This document shows positions 2,097 through 57,685 of a stretch of DNA of 64,000 bases, piece by piece (positions within the stretch are counted from its first letter, which is position 1; each line of letters begins with the position of its first letter). The notes under the pieces were generated by a model. That model saw only the letters and a program-made list of their open reading frames with translations. It did not search any database and was not told the DNA's origin. The stretch covers positions 1,830,001 to 1,894,000 of the forward strand of contig NZ_CP102258.1 of the NCBI RefSeq assembly GCF_025146565.1, read 5' to 3'. This stretch comes from Bacteroides eggerthii (lineage in GTDB: Bacteria; Bacteroidota; Bacteroidia; Bacteroidales; Bacteroidaceae). The position numbers and the translations under genes were made by a program.

Positions 2097-3011
2097 TTAG
2101 CGTTTGCCATGTGTATGTCTGCAAAAATAGTTTTGCAGGGATTGGTAACGGTTCGGAATGACCGCATTCTCATTGAAACCGTTCAGGCAATGAAGCAATG
2201 CTTTTTCGAGCGTGATGTATCGGCGACTGAAAGTCTGTACATTATCCAAGCAACAGGCTTCCAAAGCGTATTTGAACGGTGCAAGATTTTCAGGTTCTCT
2301 CCGAATCCGCACATACCACAGGAAGAACAACTGAATCGTGAAACTGTCGGATTCACCTGCTTTCATCAAATGTTCTTCATCAAGCAGCCGTCGGACAAAC
2401 TCCGGGGTAAGCTGACAATCATTTTTCCGATAATACTTGCGTTTTGCCGTATTATAGGCTGCAAACTGTTCGATGTCCTGTGCCGTCAGCCTATATACTT
2501 CCGAGTAAAATGCACGTACTTCTTTACCTGTAACAACGATTTTCTCGTCTCCGAACTCGTATTCATACGCTTTTTCATCGGAGATTTCCTCTTCTGTAAA
2601 GGTCTTGAACCCGTAACATTCCGTTACGATGAACGGTTCTTTTCCGAACTTCGCCAGAGATTCGAGGGCATGGAGGCTGTTGCAGGAGAAGAACATGTCG
2701 TTTCCAATACTTTCACCGCTTTCCAGCAGCCGGATTTTTACGTCTTCGGAATCGTTGGTGTACTTCCATACTATCCGACAGCTTGCATAATGGGGATTCC
2801 TGCCGTTTGCCTCGACAAATCCGGCAAATCCGCTCTTGATGGCGGCCTTTGTCTTCTCTACATCCGTCAGGACGCTTCGTACCTTACAAGTTTCGCACCG
2901 GCCGAATTGCAAAGAATCGTCGGAAATTTCCGTTATCACTTTAGTGTTGGGGTTTATCGTGGCTTCGCATACTACCTGCGTGCCGCCACATCGTGTACAT
3001 ATTATACTCAT
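2097..3011 (-). CDS. hypothetical protein with N-terminal zinc-ribbon cysteines
   Basis: The protein has 304 residues. The N-terminus has two CxxC pairs, C5-x2-C8 and C39-x2-C42, consistent with a zinc ribbon. The remainder is charged and mostly helical-looking, without a signal peptide or membrane segment. I do not recognise a named family beyond the zinc-binding head. It is convergent with the WG-repeat gene and divergent from the serine recombinase at 3671. Upstream sequence (3012 onward) resembles the leader blocks preceding several other minus-strand genes in this accessory region. DNA or RNA binding is an inference from the ribbon only. Confidence 0.7.
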   Translation of the reverse strand: MSIICTRCGGTQVVCEATINPNTKVITEISDDSLQFGRCETCKVRSVLTDVEKTKAAIKSGFAGFVEANGRNPHYASCRIVWKYTNDSEDVKIRLLESGESIGNDMFFSCNSLHALESLAKFGKEPFIVTECYGFKTFTEEEISDEKAYEYEFGDEKIVVTGKEVRAFYSEVYRLTAQDIEQFAAYNTAKRKYYRKNDCQLTPEFVRRLLDEEHLMKAGESDSFTIQLFFLWYVRIRREPENLAPFKYALEACCLDNVQTFSRRYITLEKALLHCLNGFNENAVIPNRYQSLQNYFCRHTHGKR

Positions 3012-3670
3012 ATTTTGATAAGATTAAAAATTAATATATCCTTCTATCCGCTATTTTGAACTTGTCGATAAGGTTCTACCAACAGCTGCAATTCCTTTTC
3101 AACCAAACAGTTTGTCCAAATTCTGCTTAAAGCATAGCATTCGGAGACACTTCCTATCCGTCCCAAATTTTCCTGTCCGTAATTTGACTAACATTTGTAC
3201 GCATAATACATAAAAGTTAAATTAAACATCGTTTTTCTTTTCCCTCTCTTCGGAAGCTTTTCGGCTTTCCTTGCCGGGAGAGATTTTACATGCAAGTCAG
3301 ACAGTAGGGAAAGGACGGAAAGGCAAGCAAACGACCGGGGATTTCACGGAATACCCAACCCGACAGGTACGACATGGCGGGGGACTGAAAGGACATCTCT
3401 GATTTGGGAAGGCTGCCGGGCAAATCCACGAGCCGTTAGCATGGCGGTGCTTGACGCCGGACGACTGCTGTACCTTTGCATGGAAAAATCCAACCGGCGA
3501 GAGAATGTTAACGGGAAGAAAAGGGAAAAGGGTATAGCGGAAAGATATAAAATAATTGTAAAATAAGATGTTACGCCTACAATTATATACAAAATCCTTT
3601 CATATCGAACCATCATGCCTTATTTATACCGGACGGGAGCAATGTCGCTCCCGTAAAATAATTAAGGACT
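3012..3670. other. intergenic region with leader block and promoter
   Basis: There is no credible gene on either strand here. The first part resembles the leader blocks seen after 22448, 23635, 24396, 25710 and 27590. A consensus -7 box TACCTTTG lies at 3471-3478 on the plus strand, about 190 bp ahead of the serine recombinase start, and is the best candidate promoter for that gene. Confidence 0.5.
3471..3478 (+). promoter_or_regulatory. Bacteroides -7 box upstream of serine recombinase
   Basis: TACCTTTG matches TAnnTTTG exactly. The -33 region is weak (CTTGA around 3450). Transcription would start near 3485 and read into the recombinase gene at 3671. Confidence 0.45.
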
Positions 3671-4330
3671 ATGATAATAGGTTATTTAAGGGTCAGTACG
3701 GGCAAACAGAATCCGGCTAACCAGCAAGACGAGATCCGGCGTTTCGCCGACAGTAGAAATCTTTCCGTCAGCCAATGGGTAACGGAGGTCGCCAGCGGCA
3801 AGAAGAAGGAGTGCGACCGCAAATTAGGAGGGCTGATACGGCGCATGAAGCATGGCGACACGCTGATTGTCACAGAAATATCGCGTCTAAGCCGCACGCT
3901 AACGGACCTCATGGCCATCATGGGCAAATGTCTGGAGAAAGGAATCAACCTTTACACGACCAAGGAGGGGTATTCGTTTGACAACTCCATCAACAGCAAG
4001 GTGCTCTGCTTCGCTTTCGGCTTGGTAGCGGAGATTGAACGCAATCTAATTTCGATGCGCACCAAAGAGGCGCTCGCCCTGCGGAAAGCCGAGGGTGTCG
4101 TCCTCGGACGAAAAAAAGGCAGCTACACGAAAATGAATGTGCTGATCGAAAACCGGAAAGTCGTCGTCGGCATGTTGAAACGGGACTGCACGATTGCCGA
4201 TATATGTAGGCGTTTCAACATCTCGCGAGATACATTTCTGAAATTCCGCAGCCGCTATAAAGAAATAGATAAAGCCATGAAAGAAAAAGAGATAAGACGA
4301 AAAGGAATGTCACAAAAACGGACGGTATGA
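3671..4330 (+). CDS. serine recombinase (DNA invertase/resolvase family)
   Basis: The protein has 219 residues. The N-terminal catalytic domain begins GYLRVSTGKQ with the nucleophile at Ser9. The conserved 'ISRLSR' block and the 'EIERNLISMRTKEAL' E-helix follow. Residues about 160-205 form a Hin-like helix-turn-helix (TIADICRRFNISRDTFLKF). This is the size and order of small DNA invertases such as Mpi of B. fragilis. It ends only 6 bp before the left inverted repeat of an invertible promoter (4337-4506). The natural inference is that it flips that promoter and controls the fimbrial operon; the family and the location support this, but specificity is not shown. Confidence 0.9.
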   Translation: MIIGYLRVSTGKQNPANQQDEIRRFADSRNLSVSQWVTEVASGKKKECDRKLGGLIRRMKHGDTLIVTEISRLSRTLTDLMAIMGKCLEKGINLYTTKEGYSFDNSINSKVLCFAFGLVAEIERNLISMRTKEALALRKAEGVVLGRKKGSYTKMNVLIENRKVVVGMLKRDCTIADICRRFNISRDTFLKFRSRYKEIDKAMKEKEIRRKGMSQKRTV

Positions 4331-4336
4331 TTTTAC

Positions 4337-4506
4337 GTTGGTTAAATCGTTCGTTTTCAGCCACAAAATTACAAAAACATGAGCTATCCACAACAAAAAT
4401 CTGCAAAAAATTGCGTTTCAGCTCTTTGAGTAGGGCGAATTTTCCCGGAGTGTCCGAATAATACGACCTTTTTTCGATAGCTTTTTTAATGAACGATTTA
4501 ACCAAC
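4337..4506. promoter_or_regulatory. invertible promoter segment of the fimbrial operon
   Basis: A perfect 16-bp inverted repeat bounds this 170-bp segment: GTTGGTTAAATCGTTC at 4337-4352 and GAACGATTTAACCAAC at 4491-4506. It lies between the serine invertase gene and the first fimbrial gene. The best consensus promoter inside reads on the minus strand (see 4364-4397), away from the fimbrial genes, so the segment appears to be in the OFF orientation. Inversion would place the promoter near the right repeat, facing gene 4635. This matches the architecture of phase-variable Bacteroides promoters. Confidence 0.85.
4364..4397 (-). promoter_or_regulatory. promoter inside the invertible segment, pointing left
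   Basis: On the minus strand the -7 box is TAATTTTG (plus-strand CAAAATTA, 4364-4371), an exact TAnnTTTG. A TTTG (-33, plus-strand CAAA at 4394-4397) lies 22 nt upstream, slightly longer than the usual 19-21. In this orientation transcripts run into the 3' end of the invertase gene in antisense. Confidence 0.7.
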
Positions 4507-4567
4507 AAATAAATCGGCATAACAGACAGTTATCAGGCTGATTATTTGTTGGTTTGGTGTTTTTTTG
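4500..4567 (+). terminator. leader hairpin with T-run (possible attenuator)
   Basis: AACCAACAAATAA (4500-4512) pairs perfectly with TTATTTGTTGGTT (4542-4554), followed by a short spacer and a run of seven T near 4561-4567. It lies downstream of the invertible segment and before the first fimbrial gene, so transcripts from the promoter in the ON state must cross it. The left arm overlaps the right inverted repeat. It may insulate the operon or act as an attenuator. Confidence 0.55.
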
Positions 4568-4634
4568 CCTTTAAATGAAAAGGCATGGCACGAGAGAATT
4601 GAATAAATAGCTGATATATAAATAGGCATAGACT

Positions 4635-5897
4635 ATGACAATGAAACGAATACTGTTATTATTTCTCTTGTTCTGCGGCGGGTATGTTCATGCACAAGAG
4701 TTGGACTCGGTCCGTATCTATTACCGGCAGGGCCACAGAGAAGTGGACGTGCTCTTCAGGGATAATCGCGCGGAATTGGAGCGTTTTATCCGCATTCTAC
4801 GCGAAGAATACGGGGCGAACCGACTTGAAGGCGTTGTGGTACGTTCGTGGTCATCGCCCGAAGGTGTGAACCATCTCAACGAGGTGTTGTCAGATCGCAG
4901 GGCCGATTCCCTGAAAACCTATCTCGTGCGCCACGCCGAAATTCCCGACAACTTGGTCTGTATACATGGCGAGGGCATCGCATGGGATATGTTGCGCCGG
5001 ATGGTCGCCGCATCGGATATGCTCTATAAAAAAGAGGTATTGCACATCCTCGACCATACACCGGTATGGGTGTTCGACAAGGCGGGTCGCGTAGTGGACG
5101 GACGAAAAAAGCAGCTCATGGACCTGCGCGGCGGTATGCCGTACACCTACATGCTGGAGAACTTCTTCCCAGATTTACGCTCCAGCCTTTCGGTGGTCTG
5201 CTACCGGAAACCCGAACCGCCTGTAAAAGTCATTCCCCAAAAAGAGTCGGAAGTGAAAGAACCGGAACCGGTCCTGCAACCCGATAGCGTGGCGGAAACG
5301 ACCTCCGAACCAGCAACGGTGCGGCAGGAAGCGACCGTGCAACCTCAGAGAGCGATGGTGCAGCGACTGGCCATCAAGACCAACCTGCTTTACGATGCGA
5401 TACTGATGCCCTCGCTCGAAGTAGAGTACCGCATCGCCGACCGCTGGACGGTGAACCTTGAAGGCGAGATGGCATGGTGGAAGAACGACGGCAAGCACAG
5501 GTATTATCAAGTGGCAACAATCAGCCCGGAGGGACGCTGGTGGTTCGGGCAAAAGCAAGGCAGCCCGTGGCACGGCCACTACCTCGGCGTGTTCGGAGGC
5601 TTCACGTGGTACGACCTCGAAAACGGCAAGGAGGGCTATCAGGGCGAAGCCGAAATGGTCGGAGTCAGCTACGGCTACATGTTCCCCATCGGACGGCGGC
5701 TCTCCTTAGAAGCCGGTATCGGCGTGGGGTACATGCACAGCAAGTATGAGGTGTACGACCCGATACCTTATCTGGGCGGCACACATTACGTCTATCGGCA
5801 GACCAGCAAGCTGGACTACTTCGGGCCGCTGAAGTTGAAACTGACGCTCGTTTGGCGTTTGTGGGACACGGATAAGAAGAAAGGAGGCGCACGATGA
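4635..5897 (+). CDS. DUF3575 protein with OmpA-like N-terminal region
   Basis: The protein has 420 residues with a signal peptide (cleavage near VHAQ). Residues about 35-120 resemble an OmpA-type fold (RDNRAELERFI, ...LSDRRADSLKTYL). A Pro/Glu-rich linker follows, then a C-terminal DUF3575 outer-membrane barrel-like domain (about 245-415; KTNLLYDAILMPSLEVEY, GYMFPIGRRLSLEAGIGVGY). DUF3575 genes are usual first members of Bacteroidales fimbrial operons. ATG at 4641 (MKRILLL) is an alternative start. The stop overlaps the next start by 4 bp, indicating translational coupling. Expression should depend on the invertible promoter upstream. Confidence 0.9.
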   Translation: MTMKRILLLFLLFCGGYVHAQELDSVRIYYRQGHREVDVLFRDNRAELERFIRILREEYGANRLEGVVVRSWSSPEGVNHLNEVLSDRRADSLKTYLVRHAEIPDNLVCIHGEGIAWDMLRRMVAASDMLYKKEVLHILDHTPVWVFDKAGRVVDGRKKQLMDLRGGMPYTYMLENFFPDLRSSLSVVCYRKPEPPVKVIPQKESEVKEPEPVLQPDSVAETTSEPATVRQEATVQPQRAMVQRLAIKTNLLYDAILMPSLEVEYRIADRWTVNLEGEMAWWKNDGKHRYYQVATISPEGRWWFGQKQGSPWHGHYLGVFGGFTWYDLENGKEGYQGEAEMVGVSYGYMFPIGRRLSLEAGIGVGYMHSKYEVYDPIPYLGGTHYVYRQTSKLDYFGPLKLKLTLVWRLWDTDKKKGGAR

Positions 5898-6919
5898 GAC
5901 GCACACCGCTATATATGGCATTATACGCCGCCACGCTTCTGTTGTTGGGCGGTTGCCGAAAGGATCTCTGTTACGACCACCCCGACCATGCTTTCTCCGT
6001 TCAGGTAAACCTCACCGCCACGTGGGAGCAGGAATGGGAACGCAGCTACCAGACCGACTGGCAGTCCGTGTGGAACCCTGCATGGCCCCAACGCTATGAC
6101 GACCTTCGCCCCGACGTGCCCACCGGCATCCGTGCACGCATCTATACCGGCGGCACCGCCGAGAACGAGGGCAACCTGTCGCCCGAAGGAGGCCGTCTTT
6201 ATATGAACGAAGGTACGCACGACCTGTTGTTCTACAACAATGACACGGAATACATCGTCTTCAACGACATCGCCGCACTGGCTTCCGCAAGTGCCACCAC
6301 CCGTAGCCTGACGCGGGGGGCTTTCGAAGCCCTGCACGCGGGGGAACGTACCGTGAACCAGCCCGACATGCTTTACGGCGCATACATAGGCAGCTACGAG
6401 GCCCTGCCCACGCAGGAGACTGTCGGTCTGCCCGTGCGTTTGCAGCCGCTCACCTATACCTACCTCGTGCGCTACGAGTTCCAACAGGGGTTTCAGTACG
6501 TGGCCCTCGCACGCGGAGCATTGGCAGGCATGGCCGAGAGCGTCTATCTGAACGACGGACACACCGGACCGGAAGCGGCTACCGTGATGTTCGACTGTAC
6601 CCTGCGTGACTACGGTCCGGAGGCCACAGTGAAATCCTTCGGCATTCCCGACTACCCCGGCGACCACTACGGCGACGGCACCCGCACCACGGAACGCTCC
6701 TACCACCTCAATCTCGAAGTGCGTCTGCACAACGGCGCGATGAAGACCTTCGAGTTCGATGTGACGGACCAAGTGAAGGCCCAGCCCCGTGGCGGCGTGA
6801 TTATCGTCTCCGACGGCCTTGTCATCACCGACGAGGAAGGTGCGGCAGGCTTCGACAGCGGTTTCGACATCGACGTGGAGGGATGGGGCGATTACATCGA
6901 CATCCCCCTGCCATTGTAA
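5894..6919 (+). CDS. DUF5119 lipoprotein of the fimbrial operon
   Basis: The protein has 341 residues, with a lipobox signal peptide (LLLLGGC). After the lipid anchor it has the features of the DUF5119 family found in Bacteroidales fimbrial loci: an early TWEQEWER segment, a central beta-rich domain and a C-terminal acidic tail (DIDVEGWGDYIDIPLPL). It overlaps the upstream gene by 4 bp. It is probably a surface or periplasmic accessory or anchor subunit; the exact role is not known. G+C is high compared with the core genes to the right. Confidence 0.85.
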   Translation: MRRTPLYMALYAATLLLLGGCRKDLCYDHPDHAFSVQVNLTATWEQEWERSYQTDWQSVWNPAWPQRYDDLRPDVPTGIRARIYTGGTAENEGNLSPEGGRLYMNEGTHDLLFYNNDTEYIVFNDIAALASASATTRSLTRGAFEALHAGERTVNQPDMLYGAYIGSYEALPTQETVGLPVRLQPLTYTYLVRYEFQQGFQYVALARGALAGMAESVYLNDGHTGPEAATVMFDCTLRDYGPEATVKSFGIPDYPGDHYGDGTRTTERSYHLNLEVRLHNGAMKTFEFDVTDQVKAQPRGGVIIVSDGLVITDEEGAAGFDSGFDIDVEGWGDYIDIPLPL

Positions 6920-7004
6920 GAAGGGTGACCTGTATAAAACAGATGTATTGATAACTAAATGATTAACCAAACAATAATGTATTTTTAATTTAAGCTTTTG
7001 CATC

Positions 7005-8099
7005 ATGAAAAAGAGTTTATTTTTGCTGGGAGTCGCCGCAGCGGTGTTCTCCGGCTGTAGCAATCAGGAAGTGATGGACGTGGCCGAATACGCCAACCAG
7101 CCCATCGAGTTTACAACTTTTGTGGACAAGACCACCCGTTCCGGTGATGTCACATCACAAAATTTCCAGAAGTTCTGGGTATTCGCACAGAACAAAGGCA
7201 CAGGCGACCAGAACTGGGCAGACGCCTTTACCAACGTGCAGGTGAGCAAAGCAGGCGACAACGAATGGCTACCCATAAACACCTACTACTGGGAAAAAAA
7301 CAAGGAATTCCGCTTTGCGGGCTATGCCAACGGGGAAAGCCAGCTTAACAAGTCGATTGTCAGCTACGATGCGGGCTCGCAGAGCGGAGGATCGACCTCC
7401 GGCCTGCTGACTTTCACGGCGTACAGCACGGACGGGAAGAACGACCTCGTAGCCGCAATGGGCAACGAGTCCAACTACACATGGGACGGCACAGCGTCGG
7501 GCGAAGCCCCGAAAGTAAGCATGACGTTCCGGCACATGCTGTCCAAGCTGACCTTCACGTTCAAGACCAAGATGGCCAACACCTACACCGTGGCTGTGAA
7601 CAACCTACGGATAGAGAGCGCAACGACCAAGTCCACGGGAACGTACCACAAGGCCAACGAAGGCACAATCACGTGGAGTACTGACCAGCTCTCAAACACT
7701 ACGGGCACATACACTTTCGACAACATCACCGACGTGACTGCCGACGCTGCCAACGAACAGGGATACTTCAGCCAGACATGCGCACCGCTGTTCGTTATTC
7801 CGCAGACCTGCGGCACGTTGAGCGTCCAATTCACCGCAGTGGTAAAGAACGCTGCCCAAGAAACGATAGGACAGCAGGATTTCAGTGCCACATTGAGCTA
7901 CAATCCGAGCAACAGCGAAACCAGCTTGCAGAAGAACACATGGACAGCCGGGTACTACTACAACTACACGGCAGAGCTGAAGATGGAAGACATCAACACC
8001 GACCCGAACGCCAAGCCTATCAAGTTTGATGTAACCGTAGATAAGTGGAAAGATACTACGCCGGGTGATGACCTTAATTTGACTGATAAAAAGAACTAA
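7005..8099 (+). CDS. fimbrillin family protein (FimA/Mfa-like shaft subunit)
   Basis: The protein has 364 residues. It begins with an SPII signal (VAAAVFSGC), followed by the N-terminal strand IEFTTFVDKTTRSG. The TTR-S site corresponds to the arginine-specific cleavage region of FimA-type pilins, where lipidated pre-pilin is trimmed for polymerisation. The rest is two beta-sandwich domains typical of Mfa_like_1 fimbrillins, including the MTFRHMLSKLTFTFK motif. It lies 85 bp after the DUF5119 gene. It is probably the major shaft or a tip-proximal subunit; which fimbrillin is major cannot be decided from sequence alone. Confidence 0.88.
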   Translation: MKKSLFLLGVAAAVFSGCSNQEVMDVAEYANQPIEFTTFVDKTTRSGDVTSQNFQKFWVFAQNKGTGDQNWADAFTNVQVSKAGDNEWLPINTYYWEKNKEFRFAGYANGESQLNKSIVSYDAGSQSGGSTSGLLTFTAYSTDGKNDLVAAMGNESNYTWDGTASGEAPKVSMTFRHMLSKLTFTFKTKMANTYTVAVNNLRIESATTKSTGTYHKANEGTITWSTDQLSNTTGTYTFDNITDVTADAANEQGYFSQTCAPLFVIPQTCGTLSVQFTAVVKNAAQETIGQQDFSATLSYNPSNSETSLQKNTWTAGYYYNYTAELKMEDINTDPNAKPIKFDVTVDKWKDTTPGDDLNLTDKKN

Positions 8100-8358
8100 A
8101 CGCTTACCGTACCAGCCAATCCGTTTCCGTGAGTTGCGCGACCCACTTCCGTGAGTTGAGCAACTCAGCGCGGCGAGTTGAGCAACTCACCATGACGAGA
8201 AACTTAACTCAGCGAAACGAGATACGCAGCTCGGCCGGTTAGGCCAATCGGACCGAAGAATACAGGCCGGGCGGGGTTGAATGTTCCCTTCCCGGCCACA
8301 ATGATACAGGACAGACCGCACACATGCAGCTTTCCTGCAAGAACGGAATAACCTTTAT
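8100..8358. other. intergenic region between two fimbrillin genes
   Basis: This 259-bp gap has no coding potential. Its first half carries the 22-bp-periodic palindrome array (8129-8190). The second half is GC-rich with short inverted repeats (CTCGGCCGGTTAGGCC near 8230). No consensus TAnnTTTG promoter is visible ahead of the second fimbrillin. Confidence 0.5.
8129..8190. repeat. three 18-bp palindromic units at 22-bp spacing
   Basis: Units start at 8129, 8151 and 8173: GTGAGTTGCGCGACCCAC, GTGAGTTGAGCAACTCAG and GCGAGTTGAGCAACTCAC. Each is nearly self-complementary (GAGTTG...CAACTC). The exact 22-bp period is about two DNA helical turns, so bound proteins would lie on one face. As RNA the units would form three successive small hairpins. 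Confidence 0.75.
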
Positions 8359-9351
8359 ATGATGAGATATATGAACAGAAGAAAGAACACCCTCGGAATC
8401 CTGCCCCTGCTGGCGACGGTGCTGTTGTCAGCGGCTTCCTGCACGGAAAGCGTGGTGCAGGACATGGAGACAGCCGGAGACAGCGGGGCGATACGTTTTT
8501 CGCTACCCACGCTGACACGCTCCGCCATCGGGAGTGCGGACGACCTGAACACCGACGGCCAGTCGTTCAGCGTGTGGGGCAGCTACCGCCACACCAGCGG
8601 CACGGACAACGACGTGCAGATATTCGACAACACGACCGTGACCTACGGTTCCGGTACAGGCTGGACCTACGGAGGCGGCCTGCTGTACTGGCAGTCGGGC
8701 AACACCTACGACTTCTACGCCCTCTATCCGTCCACCGGAACGCTGGGCGATGCCGTGTCCGTCGCCTGCACGGACGGCACCTTTACCGTCAAGAACTTCG
8801 TCGCCACGAAAGGGCACGACCTGATGACGGCGGAACGAACAAATATAGTAATCGAGGCAGACAAAGCCCCCGAATCTGTCAGCTTCAAATTCTCCCATCG
8901 GCTCACAAGGCTGGCCTTCAATATCAGGGCCGTGGGGCGCGGTGTAACGGTTACTTCCTTCAAAGTGAACGGCGTGACTTACAAAGGCGACCTTACTTGG
9001 AATGCCTCCGGTGGAAGCTCGTGGAGCAACACCGCCAAGACAAACGACAGCGATGCCCTGTTGGCCGCAAAGGATATTTCCATCACAGCCGGCGAGACCC
9101 GCAACATGCTGGGCGACGTGCTGTTACTCCCGCACACCGACCTGACTGGTACCGAAATCGCCGTGAGCTACCGTTTCGAGGGCGAGACCGCCGACCGGAA
9201 TTCCACGGTCAACCTCTCTGGCGGGAATGCGAAACAATGGGATGCAGGCAGCCAATATGCCTACACCCTGACCGTTTCGGCCGCTTCGCTCGCAATCAAC
9301 GTGAAGGTTCTCGACTGGGATGAACAGGACACCTCCGTGTCATGGCAATAA
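8359..9351 (+). CDS. fimbrillin family lipoprotein
   Basis: The protein has 330 residues. A lipobox (LLSAASC) is followed by IRFSLPTLTRSAIG, again with an R-S cleavage-type site. The mature part is a two-domain beta protein of the Mfa_like_1 fimbrillin type, with SFKFSHRLTRLAFNIR in the N-domain and a final VKVLDWDEQDTSVSWQ strand, which resembles a donor-strand segment. The start could be ATG 8359 or 8371. It follows the first fimbrillin after a 259-bp gap with unusual repeats and precedes the anchor-like gene by 35 bp. Probable minor or alternative pilus subunit. Confidence 0.85.
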   Translation: MMRYMNRRKNTLGILPLLATVLLSAASCTESVVQDMETAGDSGAIRFSLPTLTRSAIGSADDLNTDGQSFSVWGSYRHTSGTDNDVQIFDNTTVTYGSGTGWTYGGGLLYWQSGNTYDFYALYPSTGTLGDAVSVACTDGTFTVKNFVATKGHDLMTAERTNIVIEADKAPESVSFKFSHRLTRLAFNIRAVGRGVTVTSFKVNGVTYKGDLTWNASGGSSWSNTAKTNDSDALLAAKDISITAGETRNMLGDVLLLPHTDLTGTEIAVSYRFEGETADRNSTVNLSGGNAKQWDAGSQYAYTLTVSAASLAINVKVLDWDEQDTSVSWQ

Positions 9352-9386
9352 AATGAGAAATTTATAGACAACAATACATACGGTGT

Positions 9387-10433
9387 ATGAAAGCATATAT
9401 AAAACGATATTTACCGCATCCTTTCTCCCTGCTTCTGCCAGCCGCCCTCGCATGGGCTGCCAGCCTGTTGGCCGGCTGCACGGACCGAGTGGACGAATGG
9501 ATACCCGACGGACGCACAGCCTCCGTTACCCTGCACGTACCAATGGCCGATATACGTTCCACGCACACCACGGACGAGGAGTACAAGGCCGCTGAAGAGA
9601 AGATAAACACCTTGCGCATATTGGTATTCTCGCAGGACAAACCTGTCATCAACAAACAGTTCAAGGAAGCCGACCTCTCCGGCGGCAGTGTCACCATCGA
9701 GGGTGTGCCGGTAGGTACTGTGGACATCTATGCCGTGGCCAACGAGGCCGCCCTCGGCAAGGACTATTCCGACATGGCAGACTTCGAGGACAACCTCGTG
9801 CAGGTCGGCAACACCAAAAAAGCTTTGGTGATGGATGAACACCGCACGCACTTCCCAAAACGCTTTACGGAGCAGGAAATCGCACAACACGGCCTACCCA
9901 TGAGCTGGCATCGCGATGTGCAGATAATTCCATCCGACGGCACGCCGCAGACCATCGAAGTGGAACTGGAGCGCTCCGTGGCCAAGCTCAACGTCATTAT
10001 GAACAACACGCTGAGCCACCCGATTACCATCACTTCCATGACTTTCGGCGAGTTCTTCGGCGACCGGCTCTACCTGTTCCGCGAGCAGACCCTTGACGTT
10101 CCCGACGACACGGAGTATGATGTTCAAAACTACGAGAGCCTCTCTGTCGAAATCGGAGGTTACGGCAGCAAGACGCTGGCCCTTTACATCTATCCCTCAT
10201 ACGCATGGACGGATGCAAGCAAGAACTCGCCATATACCATCGGTTTCACCACAAGTACAGCTCCCTATGACGCCATACCTTTCATCAACGAATACGGCGG
10301 CGCTCTGAACTCTATCGCCCGTAACAAGCAAGTGAACATACACGCCACACTCAGTTCGGAGGCCAACCTCACGCTAAAATTTGAAGTAAAGGACTGGGAT
10401 ACGGAAGAGATAACCGTTCCCCCGTTCAATTAA
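9387..10433 (+). CDS. FimB/Mfa2-like fimbrial subunit
   Basis: The protein has 348 residues with a lipobox (AASLLAGC). The N-domain has the INTLRILVFSQDKPVINKQF strand pattern characteristic of Bacteroidales FimB/Mfa2-like anchor and accessory pilins. The C-terminus ends in LKFEVKDWDTEEITVPPFN. Family knowledge suggests an outer-membrane anchor or length regulator; here that is inference from position and fold. It is separated from the large tip-like gene by 24 bp. Confidence 0.8.
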   Translation: MKAYIKRYLPHPFSLLLPAALAWAASLLAGCTDRVDEWIPDGRTASVTLHVPMADIRSTHTTDEEYKAAEEKINTLRILVFSQDKPVINKQFKEADLSGGSVTIEGVPVGTVDIYAVANEAALGKDYSDMADFEDNLVQVGNTKKALVMDEHRTHFPKRFTEQEIAQHGLPMSWHRDVQIIPSDGTPQTIEVELERSVAKLNVIMNNTLSHPITITSMTFGEFFGDRLYLFREQTLDVPDDTEYDVQNYESLSVEIGGYGSKTLALYIYPSYAWTDASKNSPYTIGFTTSTAPYDAIPFINEYGGALNSIARNKQVNIHATLSSEANLTLKFEVKDWDTEEITVPPFN

Positions 10434-10457
10434 ACGAAACTGCATGTCATTTGAGTT

Positions 10458-13400
10458 ATGAGAACAAGACATAAAAACATATTGACCTTGCTGGCGGCCA
10501 TGCTGCTGGCGGTAGGACTGTACTCGTGTACCGAGGACCCGTTGTTCGAGGAGCGTGCCCGCGTGGCAGAGGGGCTTCCCGCACGTGTAATGCTGGACTT
10601 CCGGTCCGAGAAGAGCTGCGTGGAGACCCGTGCCGCGCAGGACGCTACCTACGAGAACCGTGTGAACAACCTCTACGTGTTCATCTTCAACCCCGCCGGG
10701 GAGGTGCATTACCGCAATTTCTTTACTGACGACATCAGCTATAACGGAGACTACAGCAAAGGTTCCGTCATGATAGAGACCACCTCTCTGAACAAGGTAC
10801 AGATAGTCTGCATCGCCAATCTATCTACTGAATCCGTAAGTTCCGGCTATGATGTCAAAAAATCGGACATGGAGTCTATAACATCGCGGTCAGACCTCGA
10901 AGCCTTCGTAATGAAGATGGACGAGCATACCGTGGAACGCTCCACGCAGTTCATGATGACAGGCTATGCTTACGATGATAAAAATTCCACGAGCAACCTT
11001 GTCAACATTCCCGGTACGGAAAGCGGTCCCGCCTCGCTGGAGTGTACGCTGCGGCCCGAGCGGACGGACGCGAGGGTGGAGTTCGTGGTGAAAACCGAGA
11101 AACCCTCCGATAAGAACTGGACGGCACTTGACTTCCGTCCGCGCGGCTGGCGGGTGGTGAACGTGCCGGCCCAGTCGTTGCTGCTGCCCCACGGGACAGG
11201 CGATGCCGATGGTGACGGTTGCACCTACTTCACAACCGAGGAGATGCCTTTCGAGACTACCGAGCGGGATGACAATTACCTCTACACTTCCGGTGGCTTC
11301 GTGTTCTACATGCCGGAAAACCGCAAGACTCCCAAACAGGCCATCTCCGGCGAAGGGCTTAGCGCTGCGGAACAGTACGCCCTACGCGAGGAACGCGAAC
11401 ACAAAAACACGGGCGACTATACGGACAAACCCGGTCAGCAGTTCGAGAACGGCGACTTTGCCTACGCCCCCGCCAACGCCACCTACGTGGAAATGTCCGG
11501 CACACTGTCCTATAAGGATGACAAAGGCAATACCGTCAATGCCGACGTGACCTTCACCGTACATCTGGGCTACGCCGACGGCAACCCCAACGACTACGAC
11601 ACCCGCCGCAATACCCGCTACATCTACACCGTCACCCTGCGTGGTATCAACGATATACGGCTTGAAGTGGAGTCCGATGGGGAGGAGAACGAACAGAGGC
11701 CCGGCTACGAAGGCAACGTGATATTCAGTCAAGATGGGCTGTACGAGCTGGATGCACACTACGACCGCGAGCTCATTACGATAAACCGAAGCATGGTTCC
11801 AACCATGACATGGGGCGTGCAGACAGCTTTCGACAAGGCCATCTATGCGGGCGGTTTCGGCGAAACGGACAGTCCGGAAAGTACAGGTATCCATGACTAC
11901 AAGTGGATCAAGTTCGCCATCAACGAGGACTATGGCCAAGACGACGAGCTGTTCGTGAAATACCCCGGTGACCAGAACTACAAGGGCGGAAAGAACCAAC
12001 CTTCGGGGTATGACGGACATGCGGGCCATTCTGACGCCCGCCTACTCGACGTACACCAGTTGCTGCAACGCCTGAAGCAGGAGTACGAGGAAGGAAAGAC
12101 CACCGGTACGGTTACCGTTACCGCTTTCATCGACGAGTACGTGTACGTGCGCGAGCCGGATGACCCCAATACAGACGAGGACAATACCCCGCTTTTGTCG
12201 CAGTGGCGCCGATACGTGGAGGCCGAAGACCGCCTGCTCTATTTTATCAACGGAGACAACTCGCATTACAGTCCCGATGGCGCGTCGAGCGTGGTGGAAG
12301 CCATACAGACTTTCAAGCAGAAGTCCATACGCACGGTGTACAACGTGAAAAAGAGCGAGAATGAATTGTCCACCGCATGGGGGCTTGAAAGCCGCATGGA
12401 GGGCACGCGTTGGAAGGAAGGTGACGTGAGAAACAGTACTTCCTCCAGCAACGGCCGGCTCAATACCATACGTTGTATTCTGGGCGAAAACTATGTATCC
12501 AACAGATCCCTGCATTGGACGGAGGTGCTCAACCCCTCCGAGCACTACGGTCTGACCGATGACCACCAAGACGCCCTGCACGCTGTGCTGTTGCGTAACC
12601 GCGACCTGAACGGCGACAACATCGTGCAGCCTAACGAAATACGCTGGTATCTGGCCGCCATCGACCAGCTCGTGGATCTCTATATCGGCGAATATGCGCT
12701 GGACGACGCTTCGCGCCTCTATCCCCAAAATCCCGCGGACAGGGATTACCAGACCTATTGGCACTATACCAGTAGTTCCGCTGACGGCGACCATTCGTGG
12801 GTGTTGTGGGCAGAAGAATGTGCCGCATTGGGTAACTACGACGGCTCGCACAACACCGTGGGCGGACAATATGCCTACCGTTGCATACGCAACCTCGGTA
12901 TCGGTCTTGACGATCCGAATGTTGAACCCACACCACTCATTCCCAAAGTGACACAGGCCGAACCCGACGGTACCTACCTGATTGATGTCTCCAACCTTAG
13001 CGAGAAGGCACGCCGCCTAAGCTATGAAGCCAGTTCGTTGCCCACGCATAATGACCTGTCGCCTTATAACCGACCGTATGCCAAGTTCCGGGTAGCGGCA
13101 AATGACGCAGACTATCCTACACCGAGCATAGATGTGAATGCACTAAATCGTTGGAGTTGGGAAGGCGTTCAGGATTGGAGATGGTATCAGACCGCTTCTA
13201 TTACACCGAGCGGCTATCGCGTGCCCAACTTGCGCGAGCTGCTTATCATGGGTACCCGCTTACCCGATGACGCATGGCAAACGTATGAGGGTCGATGGCT
13301 TCTTTACAGACATGAGAGCAAAGCCATGTACATGACCTATACCAGCTTCAGCCGCGGAACTTATGACGGAGACGGCTCCATTTCAGGCAAGAACGGCGGT

Positions 13401-13490
13401 TTCCGTTTCAATGCCCAAGACCACTCCATCGGTGCGACCAGTTCAGATGCCGACGGCGGGTATGTACGCGGCGTGAAAGACGAACAATAA
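10458..13490 (+). CDS. large DUF4906-type fimbrial tip protein
   Basis: The protein has 1010 residues and ends the fimbrial operon. A lipobox (AVGLYSC) is followed by a fimbrillin-like N-domain (TRAA site, VNNLYVFIFNPAGEVHYRNFF). The long central and C-terminal part includes a block (GYRVPNLRELLIMGTRLPDD ... GGFRFNAQDHSIGAT) typical of DUF4906 proteins at the ends of such operons. The large size and the terminal gene position fit a tip adhesin. The ligand is unknown. A hairpin terminator follows at 13509-13556. Confidence 0.85.
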   Translation: MRTRHKNILTLLAAMLLAVGLYSCTEDPLFEERARVAEGLPARVMLDFRSEKSCVETRAAQDATYENRVNNLYVFIFNPAGEVHYRNFFTDDISYNGDYSKGSVMIETTSLNKVQIVCIANLSTESVSSGYDVKKSDMESITSRSDLEAFVMKMDEHTVERSTQFMMTGYAYDDKNSTSNLVNIPGTESGPASLECTLRPERTDARVEFVVKTEKPSDKNWTALDFRPRGWRVVNVPAQSLLLPHGTGDADGDGCTYFTTEEMPFETTERDDNYLYTSGGFVFYMPENRKTPKQAISGEGLSAAEQYALREEREHKNTGDYTDKPGQQFENGDFAYAPANATYVEMSGTLSYKDDKGNTVNADVTFTVHLGYADGNPNDYDTRRNTRYIYTVTLRGINDIRLEVESDGEENEQRPGYEGNVIFSQDGLYELDAHYDRELITINRSMVPTMTWGVQTAFDKAIYAGGFGETDSPESTGIHDYKWIKFAINEDYGQDDELFVKYPGDQNYKGGKNQPSGYDGHAGHSDARLLDVHQLLQRLKQEYEEGKTTGTVTVTAFIDEYVYVREPDDPNTDEDNTPLLSQWRRYVEAEDRLLYFINGDNSHYSPDGASSVVEAIQTFKQKSIRTVYNVKKSENELSTAWGLESRMEGTRWKEGDVRNSTSSSNGRLNTIRCILGENYVSNRSLHWTEVLNPSEHYGLTDDHQDALHAVLLRNRDLNGDNIVQPNEIRWYLAAIDQLVDLYIGEYALDDASRLYPQNPADRDYQTYWHYTSSSADGDHSWVLWAEECAALGNYDGSHNTVGGQYAYRCIRNLGIGLDDPNVEPTPLIPKVTQAEPDGTYLIDVSNLSEKARRLSYEASSLPTHNDLSPYNRPYAKFRVAANDADYPTPSIDVNALNRWSWEGVQDWRWYQTASITPSGYRVPNLRELLIMGTRLPDDAWQTYEGRWLLYRHESKAMYMTYTSFSRGTYDGDGSISGKNGGFRFNAQDHSIGATSSDADGGYVRGVKDEQ

Positions 13491-15331: not shown

Positions 15332-16789
15332 TCAACGCTTGGGCTTCTTGCCGATGGAAGGGCGCATCATGCGGCTCGCCATCCTCATGCAGCGAAGCGC
15401 CCATGCCCGGTTGTCCTCGTCTTCATCACGTCCCCATTTGAGGTCGCTTCCGCCACCTCCTCCGCCACGTGTTTCGGCAAACGTAGTGGCATCATCGACC
15501 ATACCGAGAAAGAGCATCGTGGCGCAGCGCATGACTTCCGCTCCCCGTTCCGCCACGGAACGCACGAGTGTGTCGTCGAAAAGTTGCCGTTCGGAAGGCT
15601 TCATCCGCGCCGACAGTTCCCTCCACTCATCGACCATATTTTCCAGCATGACGTCCTTGAGTAGGCTGTCCACTTTGGAGTGGACATCACGGGAGTATTC
15701 GTAGGCTTCCTCCTTGAGCTGTTCCGTGCGTTCCTCAATGGCATCCATGTTTGCCTTGAGGTCGGAAAGCTGTCGGTCGGCGGTTTGTAGCTTCTCCTGT
15801 TTGTCTGCCAGTTTCCCTTGGATAGCAGTCAGCTCTTTTTCGAGCTTTTCTTTCTCGGCAGATAGGGTCAAAGCATCACCTTTCCGGGTATCCATATCAT
15901 TTTCGAGTGCCGACAATTGAGCCTCTTTTTCGCTCTTCTCCCTTTTCAAGTTTTCCACCATCGAGGTCAAACCTTTGACTCTGCGCTCTGCCAGCCGAAT
16001 GTCCGAATGGAGGGCGGACAGGACTTCCTGATGTCGGCCAATCTGTTGCTCAATGGTGGTACATTCTTCCGAGAGCATACGGCGGTATTCTTCCGTCGTC
16101 CTGTGCCGTGCGCCGGTCTCGGCGACGCTCCGGCCTCTCTCCATTCCCCACTTCGTGTTGACCTCGGCGAAAAAGTCCGTATGGAGCTGTTTCATCCTCG
16201 CGCTATATTCGAACTTGTCCTTTCCGGCGAATATCTCCTTGTACGCAAACCTCCCGTCTTTGATTGGCAGAAGCGTACAATGCACGTGCGGATTTAATTC
16301 GTCGAGGTGTACAATGAAGGCGGCTATATTCTGCTCGCCGTATCTGCCGCAAACGAATGCATAGACATCCTTCGCCCAACGTTCGATGTCGCTCTTCCTT
16401 TTGATGCGGGTATTGTCCGCACCTTTTTCAAAATCCACCTTCTGCGTGCCGAAAGCGAGTTCGTGCATCCGCTTCCGCGAACCGCCGAAAATGATGTTTA
16501 CCACCGTGCGGTATTTCGGTTCAACCAATCCCTCGTTGGGGTCTTTGATCCCGCGACGGCCCAATATGTCCGCTATCCGTTCCGGGATATTGCGGCTCGT
16601 GTCGATGGGGCGAACCTTGCCTCCGGGCACAATCTCGAAGTTCAGATGTTTGCGGGTGGGGTCGTAGTTGCCCTTGCTCATGGCGTACTTCTCCGCCTCT
16701 TCGCTGCGATTACGCAGGTGTTCGTTGCCTTGGGCGGCGGTGATCCCTTTCGATACCTGAACATCGAGAACCTGTTTTGCATTTGCCAT
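15332..16789 (-). CDS. MobV-family relaxase (mobilization protein)
   Basis: The protein is 485 residues from ATG 16789 (MANAKQVLDVQVSKG); an upstream ATG at 16849 would add 20 residues that do not look like the family. The metal-binding motif HLDELNPHVH (about residues 161-170) is the HxDExxPHxH signature of Pre/Mob (MobV) relaxases, which nick oriT and lead transfer. A long coiled coil (about residues 240-390) and a basic tail follow. The gene lies downstream of the HTH-like gene and a putative oriT (16821-16876), and 55 bp before the OmpA-like gene. Transfer would need conjugation machinery in trans or outside this window. Confidence 0.9.
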   Translation of the reverse strand: MANAKQVLDVQVSKGITAAQGNEHLRNRSEEAEKYAMSKGNYDPTRKHLNFEIVPGGKVRPIDTSRNIPERIADILGRRGIKDPNEGLVEPKYRTVVNIIFGGSRKRMHELAFGTQKVDFEKGADNTRIKRKSDIERWAKDVYAFVCGRYGEQNIAAFIVHLDELNPHVHCTLLPIKDGRFAYKEIFAGKDKFEYSARMKQLHTDFFAEVNTKWGMERGRSVAETGARHRTTEEYRRMLSEECTTIEQQIGRHQEVLSALHSDIRLAERRVKGLTSMVENLKREKSEKEAQLSALENDMDTRKGDALTLSAEKEKLEKELTAIQGKLADKQEKLQTADRQLSDLKANMDAIEERTEQLKEEAYEYSRDVHSKVDSLLKDVMLENMVDEWRELSARMKPSERQLFDDTLVRSVAERGAEVMRCATMLFLGMVDDATTFAETRGGGGGGSDLKWGRDEDEDNRAWALRCMRMASRMMRPSIGKKPKR

Positions 16790-16820
16790 ACTGTTTTCGT
16801 GTTGTTTCGGACAATTCCCC

Positions 16821-16876
16821 GTGTCCCAGCTTGCTGCTTGCTTGGACACTTCTCCCTGCGACGTCAGTCAGCAGGG
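16821..16876. other. putative oriT region
   Basis: Two inverted repeats sit just upstream of the relaxase start. An imperfect 10-bp pair is GTGTCCCAGC (16821-16830) with GCTTGGACAC (16840-16849). The other is CCCTGC (16854-16859) with GCAGGG (16871-16876). MobV relaxases usually nick beside inverted repeats close to their own gene. The nick site itself was not recognised. Confidence 0.4.
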
Positions 16877-20574: not shown

Positions 20575-20603
20575 TACTTATTCTTATAGAAGTGCACAAT
20601 GAT

Positions 20604-21236
20604 ATGGCAAAAGTAGGTTACATATTCAAGGCGGATCGTTACGACGGATTCGAGGCTGATAAAGAGTGGATGCAGAAATACGGTTGTGTACAAGTGATAG
20701 AGGAACTTGTCGAAAACGAGGCTCTGCGCCCCAGATGGAAACAGCTTGTAGCGAATCTCGAAAGAGGTGACGAGATTGTCGTGGCCAAATTCAGCAACGC
20801 TCTCCGTGGGTCGCGCGAATTGTCCGCGTTTATTGAGTTGTGCCGAATCAAAGTGGTGCGTATCATTTCCATCCATGACCGGATCGACTCGCGGGGAAAA
20901 CTGTTCCCCGAAACGACGGCAGCCGATGTACTGGATATGTTCGGGGCGCTACCCGAAGAGGTGGCGGTATTGCGGTATTCGTCCGCACATGTCATGAATC
21001 TGCAACAGAAAGCGAAGGTCCCGAGAAAAACGATGAAGGCGATGGATAAGGCCGACCGGGAGAATACCATCGTTGATATGTATGTCAACGGTCATTCTTT
21101 CGAGGACATCATGGCGGTAAGCGGGTACAACAGCCGGAGTTCGGTGTTCAGTGTGCTCAACCGGCACGGGGTAAAGCTCAATAGGGGAAAATTCAAAGGA
21201 CCGTTGGGCAAGCGTAAGCCGAAAGATGGGCAATGA
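20604..21236 (+). CDS. resolvase-like protein lacking the catalytic serine
   Basis: The protein is 210 residues from ATG 20604; GTG 20592 is possible but less likely. The fold follows serine recombinases: N-terminal GYIFKADRYDG, a GDEIVVAKFSNALRGSRELSAFIE block, and a C-terminal Hin-like HTH (TIVDMYVNGHSFEDIMAVSGYNSRSSVF). The YxRVST nucleophile motif is replaced by YIFKAD, so no catalytic serine is seen at the usual place. It may be a DNA-binding regulator rather than an active recombinase. It is divergent from the mobilization operon, which it could control. Confidence 0.75.
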   Translation: MAKVGYIFKADRYDGFEADKEWMQKYGCVQVIEELVENEALRPRWKQLVANLERGDEIVVAKFSNALRGSRELSAFIELCRIKVVRIISIHDRIDSRGKLFPETTAADVLDMFGALPEEVAVLRYSSAHVMNLQQKAKVPRKTMKAMDKADRENTIVDMYVNGHSFEDIMAVSGYNSRSSVFSVLNRHGVKLNRGKFKGPLGKRKPKDGQ

Positions 21237-56238: not shown

Positions 56239-56475
56239 AAAGTGTTTTTTAAACGTTCGTTTAATGTTCGCAAAGATAAGAGGTATTTTTGAAATGAACA
56301 AAGTGTTTAATAAAAATATTATCTCTGTTATTACAATGTAGGGTTTAAGTGTTTGTGTATTAGTTAATTATCGTTTTTATATATTATTTGAAGTTTCTAT
56401 CTGTTTTTCTGTATTTCAATAGTTCTCTATTCTGAAATATTGACGTTTTTTAAACGAACGTTTAAAAAACACTTT
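56239..56475. promoter_or_regulatory. invertible promoter segment of the capsule operon
   Basis: A perfect 26-bp inverted repeat (56239-56264 and 56450-56475) bounds 237 bp. The repeat contains AAACGTTCGT, which matches the ARACGTWCGT core I recall for Mpi-flipped capsule promoters of B. fragilis. The promoter inside points left (see 56271-56302), so the capsule operon is in its OFF orientation in this sequence. The invertase need not be nearby. Confidence 0.92.
56271..56302 (-). promoter_or_regulatory. promoter inside the capsule invertible segment, pointing left
   Basis: On the minus strand TATCTTTG (plus-strand CAAAGATA, 56271-56278) and TTTG (plus-strand CAAA, 56299-56302) are exact -7 and -33 boxes with 20 nt between. 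It reads away from upxY. Confidence 0.85.
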
Positions 56476-57202: not shown

Positions 57203-57685
57203 ATGAATAATTTGACTTCTCGCGCTCTTGAGCTCCAGCGTTTGGCTCACGAGCTGATTTATCTTGGTGTAGACGGTGAGCCTATCTATTCAGACACCTT
57301 TTGCCGTTTGAATAAGGATGTCCTTCTGCAGTGCGATTCTCTTTTCTTGCTCCGGGGTAGCACCTCCGATGAAGAGGCCAATCTCTGTCTGGCTCTCCTT
57401 TTAGGTTATAATGCCACGATTTATGACTACGGTAATAAGGAGCGTAATAAGCAGTCTGTGCTTGATCGTGCTTTTGAGGTGCTCGAACAGCTTCCCGCCT
57501 CCTTGCTGAAAGTGCGCTTGCTCACTTATTGCTATGGTGAGGTCTATGAAGAGGCCCTGCTTCGTGAAGCCCACGAGATAATAGGAAGCTGGGACAATAC
57601 CTCACTGTCCTCCGGACAGGCCGAGATCATTGAAGAGCTTCGTAACATTGAGGAGAACCCTTATCCTTACGAAGTGATAGAATAG
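57203..57685 (+). CDS. upxZ: UpxZ-family inhibitor of other capsule operons
   Basis: The protein has 160 residues. RALELQRLAHELIYLGVDGE and LCLALLLGYNATIYDYGNKE are typical of UpxZ. Known UpxZ proteins inhibit UpxY of other capsule loci, giving hierarchy between capsules. Position after upxY is as expected. The gap is 55 bp. Confidence 0.9.
   Translation: MNNLTSRALELQRLAHELIYLGVDGEPIYSDTFCRLNKDVLLQCDSLFLLRGSTSDEEANLCLALLLGYNATIYDYGNKERNKQSVLDRAFEVLEQLPASLLKVRLLTYCYGEVYEEALLREAHEIIGSWDNTSLSSGQAEIIEELRNIEENPYPYEVIE

Follow-up and report, generated by a model that had tools for sequence, protein, structure and literature searches.

In Escherichia coli, the type 1 fimbrial switch fimS inverts a promoter upstream of the fimbrial genes by means of locally encoded recombinases. 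These are tyrosine recombinases, and they act on different repeats and upstream of chaperone-usher pili, unlike the system described here. The capsule promoters of Bacteroides fragilis resemble it in several respects: a small serine recombinase (Mpi), short inverted repeats with CGTTCG at their centre, a consensus TANNTTTG promoter near one arm and a surface structure as the target. According to PMC12632263, these capsule promoters are inverted by one global invertase, and the Mpi core has been given as ARACGTTCGT (PMC8375218). Invertible segments upstream of fimbrillin genes have likewise been reported from gut Bacteroidota (groups 112, 122 and 137), where, in the main text of PMC11892184, invertase and integrase families are over-represented close to invertons and in most cases are not transcribed from the inverton promoter. 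Both invertible promoters before fimbrillin genes and invertases adjoining invertons are already described (PMC11892184, PMC12632263). The same main text of PMC11892184 names tyrosine-type and site-specific integrases, whereas the word "serine" is absent from it and the enzyme at the present locus is a serine invertase; nor does that text mention units that move between repeat arms. A literature search at main-text level gave no description of such moving crossover units, which is a weak negative.

Invertible promoters are usually detected by combining inverted repeats with sequencing reads. In this work we analysed a 64,000-nt stretch of Bacteroides eggerthii (contig NZ_CP102258.1, positions 1,830,001 to 1,894,000; the window, to which coordinates refer unless another locus is named) and interpret one of its loci as a serine-invertase-linked phase-variation switch of a type V pilus operon, seen in the OFF state (probability roughly 0.88). 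In the proposed mechanism, the adjacent Mpi-like invertase would pair two repeat arms and invert a 138-bp segment, so that a single promoter would point either into the six-gene pilus operon (ON), probably driving all six genes, or left across the invertase gene (OFF). Each arm would offer two alternative crossover centres of CG-TT-SG type, 12 bp apart, with exchange presumably at the TT. Equal registers would usually pair, and unequal ones would sometimes do so, moving a 12-bp unit from arm to arm while the total stays unchanged. The cassette would pass between species on mobile DNA, and the segment presumably still inverts in this strain today. The features are as follows, with L003 to L007 denoting the five closest relatives.

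3451–3478, plus strand: candidate invertase promoter TTG-N17-TACCTTTG, about 190 bp upstream of the ATG (consensus match only; also in L088)
3671–4330, plus strand: serine invertase, 219 aa, resolvase domain and C-terminal HTH (PF00239, E 3.3e-35)
4337–4352, plus strand: left arm of the inverted repeat (sequence and repeat search)
4338–4339 and 4350–4351: outer and inner TT of the left arm, crossover-like centres placed by comparison with relatives
4337–4348, plus strand: left-arm 12-bp unit GTTGGTTAAATC, absent in L003 and L006
4353–4490, no strand: invertible segment, 138 bp (sequence and repeat search)
4364–4393, minus strand: Bacteroides-type promoter TTG-N19-TAATTTTG, pointing left (OFF)
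4491–4506, minus strand: right arm of the inverted repeat (inner centre 4492–4493, outer centre 4504–4505)
4495–4506, minus strand: right-arm 12-bp unit; two units at the right arm in L003 and L006
4500–4554, plus strand: leader hairpin with 13-bp perfect arms (4500–4512 and 4542–4554), then a T-run
4635–5897, plus strand: first operon gene, DUF3575 protein (profile match; 86–88% identity in L003–L007)
5894–6919, plus strand: DUF5119 protein (profile match)
7005–8099, plus strand: fimbrillin-like protein, Mfa_like_1 (profile match)
8359–9351, plus strand: fimbrillin-like protein, Mfa_like_1 (profile match)
9387–10433, plus strand: Mfa2 family protein, likely anchor (profile match)
10458–13490, plus strand: large protein with FimA-type N-terminal match (P_gingi_FimA), likely tip

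The PF00239 match of the invertase covers residues 2–143 and lies above the cut-off, and an HTH_28 match (residues 165–198, E 9e-5) falls just below it (22.9 bits versus 25). The YLRVS motif, read from the sequence, occupies residues 5–9 and contains what we take to be the catalytic serine. By domain content the enzyme is a small serine DNA invertase, and inverting activity is predicted. Scored against the model of the master DNA invertase Mpi family (NF009949), it reaches 247.1 bits, below the curated cut-off of 272. Two proteins of the same genome served for comparison: L107, the genome's own Mpi-family protein, passes with 292.4 bits and L108 fails with 239.7, their identities to the local invertase being 54% and 63%, respectively. 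On this evidence, we regard the local enzyme as an Mpi-like recombinase. Compared with the Mpi capsule system, it lies 6 bp from its segment and below the Mpi cut-off, the arms have a second centre 12 bp further out, and the target is a pilus operon. A stem-loop (ACGGGAGC...GCTCCCGT, 3633–3654), located 16 bp upstream of the invertase start and also present in L088, possibly controls invertase translation.

The repeat GTTGGTTAAATCGTTC is a perfect 16-bp inverted repeat (4337–4352 on the plus strand, reverse complement at 4491–4506) that encloses exactly 138 bp, and TTG-N19-TAATTTTG runs inside this segment on the minus strand from 4393 to 4364. The TAATTTTGT of this promoter agrees with TANNTTTGY, the -7 consensus published in PMC12632263. 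The window has two places with perfect 16-bp inverted repeats at a distance of 100–250 bp (the switch and 56239–56475), and 1 of 200 dinucleotide shuffles yields one. Shuffling the segment 5000 times produced the promoter pattern, counting both strands, in 18 cases; the 64-kb window has 6 matches. Repeat and promoter at the switch are thus above chance. With up to two mismatches, the 16-mer is found in the 4,206,509-bp genome only as this pair; since the pattern written backwards, our control, gives three matches, this uniqueness is unremarkable alone, and the perfect pairing is what counts. The promoter claim does not draw on a sigma-70 scan, which is built for E. coli-type promoters, and Rfam gave no match in 3400–4900. 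As in invertons, short inverted repeats flank a consensus promoter that lies ahead of a surface operon. An earlier note, made from the letters of this DNA, had described a perfect 16-bp repeat around 138 bp with a promoter directed away from the fimbrial genes, a serine invertase gene 6 bp to the left of the repeat, an OFF orientation and a six-gene fimbrial operon. Coordinates and promoter match confirm the first, and the others hold as well: the ORF ends at 4330 and the repeat starts at 4337, the promoter lies on the minus strand and points left from the operon, and six ORFs carry DUF3575, DUF5119, two Mfa_like_1, Mfa2 and P_gingi_FimA matches.

The six plus-strand ORFs right of the switch (4635–13490) constitute a type V pilus operon, with stalk, anchor and tip proteins of FimA/Mfa type whose roles are assigned by family name. 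The P_gingi_FimA match sits in the 1010-aa protein, and the NCBIfam models Mfa1 and FimD match operon proteins below their cut-offs only. The leader RNA (4490–4634) folds with -37.1 kcal/mol (z -4.15), a value equalled by none of 200 shuffles. The 5' arm of its hairpin overlaps the right repeat arm, and the hairpin arms are identical in L003–L007. The hairpin is represented by three distinct sequences. This hairpin may serve as an attenuator or as a block to read-through from the invertase gene. We also considered 4542–4554 as a third repeat copy that would act as a recombination site and set this aside, an RNA hairpin being the simpler reading.

The claim in the earlier note that the repeat lacks an Mpi-type core was overstated. 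The left arm reads on as AATCGTTCGT and shares 9 of the 10 core bases, including the CG-TT-CG common to Mpi sites, and the right arm reads AATCGTTCAT and shares 8. Calling the switch private likewise went too far, with arms this near the Mpi core and an Mpi-family invertase elsewhere in the genome, although the adjacent invertase does fall below the curated Mpi cut-off.

For a broader comparison, genome contigs were scanned with the enzyme and 80 of 104 relatives were kept. The five closest enzymes (95–96% identity) come from B. ndongoniae, B. ilei, B. propionicigenes, P. coprocola and B. cutis, and enzyme, switch and operon start are kept in all five. Along the operon, identity to these relatives is 86–88% for the DUF3575 and 63–64% for the DUF5119 protein, 34–35% and 43–44% for the fimbrillins and 23–24% for the tip, and Mfa2 found no match among the five. 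Judged by these values, the pilus subunits diverge faster than the switch; the locus presents a self-contained adhesin switch that moves with its enzyme between gut species while the pilus subunits diverge.

The switch unit is present in all five named relatives, each time OFF. Within the window's genus, 3 of 157 other genomes have near full-length copies of the switch, as do 2 of 61 genomes of the genus of G013; to judge from the arms, these copies probably belong to the same five strains and were counted once. Four further matches in the genus search were short. An exact-repeat search of 399 family genomes, which is blind to copies with the other variable base, with shifted arms or in undrawn genomes, returned G000 and G245 only. 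Across the order (392 genomes), a DNA search gave eight short matches beyond the window, each covering at most 49 of the 351 query bases, and the genus around G022 (18 genomes) gave no switch match. Viral and plasmid copies were dismissed as candidates: IMG/VR contained neither an invertase relative nor an exact promoter-side arm, and there was no plasmid match.

The near-identical copies across species bear out the suggestion that switch and fimbrial operon are carried on mobile DNA. The G+C content is 55.5% in the operon and 42.9, 37.8 and 42.4% in three stretches from 17 kb to the window end. An invertase tree of 84 rows covers 79 of the 80 relatives, L039 being too short to include. In it, the window enzyme groups with five Bacteroides/Phocaeicola copies (100/99) and next with the Alistipes record L008 (100/93); 22 of the 78 inner branches are open. 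By our count, 39 of the 79 relatives' rows are labelled Rikenellaceae, and a donor from this family is a fair inference. A Mob_Pre relaxase (15332–16849) is encoded downstream of the operon, and an ORF at 20592–21236 has a partial serine-recombinase match (29 bits, profile positions 17–107 of 145); both would be consistent with mobile DNA.

The arms of the close copies contain a 12-bp unit, GTTGGTTWAATC, whose eighth base is A or T. Written as [left; right from inside out], the window and L005 are [A;A], L007 is [A;T] and L004 is [T;A], while L003 and L006 are both [0;T,A], that is 0+2 units instead of 1+1. These differences stand out from nearly invariant surroundings. L005 and L007 have 2 mismatches in 20,657 bp, of which one falls on the variable base of the right arm, and L006 and L007 show no mismatch over about 20.6 kb, with two gaps that correspond to the 12-bp arm changes. 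The near-identical copies in three species (L005–L007) thus differ at the switch arms and at one other base. Between L003 and L004, a unit is missing on the left and added on the right, and L004 has a 46-bp duplication; the compared stretch is otherwise alike, the one mismatch lying inside the duplicated copy. This tandem duplication in L004 (B. ilei, about 11009–11055) is near the start of the DUF3575 gene and, not being a multiple of three, should disrupt its reading frame.

We modelled these states by a search in which any left centre may join any right centre by inversion. For either pair (L007 to L006, L004 to L003), the shortest route would take two inversions; an even number is required because all copies are OFF. 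Every two-inversion route listed includes at least one unequal pairing, with centres 12 bp out of register. As inversion conserves units, the model offers no route from [0;T,A] to the [A;A] of the window and L005, which would need a further event such as a base change or gene conversion. An inner centre as the sole crossover point was rejected, since neither the A/T variant nor the moved units can be explained without the outer centre as well. Under this simple model, the arm redistribution suggests that the switch flipped recently in the relatives. Past inversion would then be legible from uniformly OFF assemblies, with the exchange point confined to centres spaced by 12 bp.

Double centres are also found beyond this element. 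In the 80 loci (1,344,984 bp), GTTSGTT-N5-GTTSG, which sets the centres 12 bp apart, has 20 matches, compared with 2, 0, 0, 3, 0 and 4 at spacings of 9, 10, 11, 13, 14 and 15. Eight of the 20 derive from the five copies of the window's element, and five are switch arms of L013, L014, L018, L029 and L041. The double centre of L023 has a partner repeat and an imperfect promoter box; that of L008 has an outward promoter box, its partner not being found in the available locus DNA; and four matches have no promoter nearby. L030 has a three-centre array 328 bp beyond the invertase, without an assignable promoter (about 10958; GTTGG-type centres spaced by 12 bp, near the invertase and a DUF3575 gene). 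Outside the element, all 5 loci with both arms and a clear promoter box carry the double centre on the promoter-proximal arm (read by eye). The window's element breaks this rule, both units being promoter-distal in L003 and L006 and one unit lying on each arm in the other copies. The genome's four Mpi-type pairs all lack a 12-bp-spaced double centre, and the capsule pair has a related motif at 11 bp. A more speculative idea, which we consider doubtful, is that the invertase shuttles tandem 12-bp units between the ends as in a vernier and thereby creates heritable states beyond ON and OFF (0, 1 or 2 units on the operon side). Vernier-like double or triple centres do exist at switches of Rikenellaceae relatives. 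Unit counts would then tune the leader length, the leader hairpin, whose 5' arm is in the repeat, and perhaps the switching bias; if they alter expression, phase switches could have more than two heritable states.

In promoter-plus-repeat scans, 18 of the 80 loci proved to have a usable switch near the invertase. This number leaves aside L077, where the promoter box and the end of the repeat are 41 bp apart instead of 15 or 27 and no DUF3575 gene was found in the available locus DNA. L027 and L036, whose available DNA likewise showed no DUF3575 gene, stayed out of the orientation count. At 14 loci, a promoter-bearing repeat pair is followed by a DUF3575 gene in the same direction. Twelve of these are OFF, a number that includes the five copies of the window's element, the mutually near-identical L033 and L038, and the doubtful L012 and L037 (weak repeats, 7-bp core, 13 of 32 compared positions alike). 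The other two are ON: L013 and L014, both Rikenellaceae MAGs, are syntenic and more distant. In the window and the five named relatives, all assemblies are OFF and none ON. Two more loci, L041 and L080, have a divergent DUF3575 gene, with the promoter directed away from it. OFF therefore dominates, which may reflect culture bias, mapping bias or a real bias. In L014 (about 10700–10760), a 17-bp inverted repeat with one mismatch overlaps the left arm and is followed by a T-run; it looks like the terminator of the L014 invertase gene.

The invertase adjoins the switch in the five named copies and in several Rikenellaceae loci, the arm sequence recurs nowhere else in the genome at up to two mismatches, and the double centre is absent at the four Mpi-type sites. 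All three observations speak against inversion mainly in trans by another enzyme, such as L107 or L108, which we hold to be very unlikely, even though the left arm is close to the Mpi core, L107 exceeds the Mpi cut-off and the genome has at least four exact AACGTTCGT pairs 165–195 bp apart. A B. fragilis invertase is also said, in the title of a 2007 paper, to have a local and a distant target. A separate possibility is that OFF has a job of its own, with the promoter transcribing the invertase gene antisense, damping switching and stabilising OFF. In the window and in each of the five close copies, the OFF promoter faces directly into the invertase gene, a terminator scan of 3000–5000 found no minus-strand terminator, and the dominance of OFF in assemblies would fit. 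At L041, L080 and L108, however, the fimbrial gene is divergent and the away-pointing promoter faces the invertase in sense, so that this logic is not general, and OFF may simply be favoured in culture. We consider such antisense damping unlikely.

The moved units, too, could have another origin, namely slippage, gene conversion or assembly error instead of out-of-register inversion. Short inverted repeats are prone to misassembly, the repeat region of L006 and L003 might in principle be an assembly artefact, and the [A;A] arms are unreachable by inversion alone. Yet two lineages about 89% identical display the same 0+2 state, and slippage would be expected to alter the unit total. For each of the two pairs, the loss of one unit at one arm is matched by the gain of one at the opposite arm, the A/T variant tracking with it, and between L006 and L007 the rest of the 20.6 kb is unchanged. 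Such origins seem improbable, and out-of-register inversion is the reading that we retain.

Two further switches of the same genome were noted. A second, Mpi-type invertible promoter lies in the window at the capsule-type switch (56239–56475), with AAACGTTCGT cores at 56251–56260 and 56454–56463; by eye, its TATCTTTG box points left, away from the plus-strand ORFs that begin at 57203. Immediately upstream of the gene of the Mpi-like invertase L108 (G000:C1, about 1792470), a TACCTTTG box and a CTGAAAACGAACGATTT site point into the gene. The L108 locus has a divergent DUF3575 gene (34% identity), and the away orientation there would read the invertase in sense.
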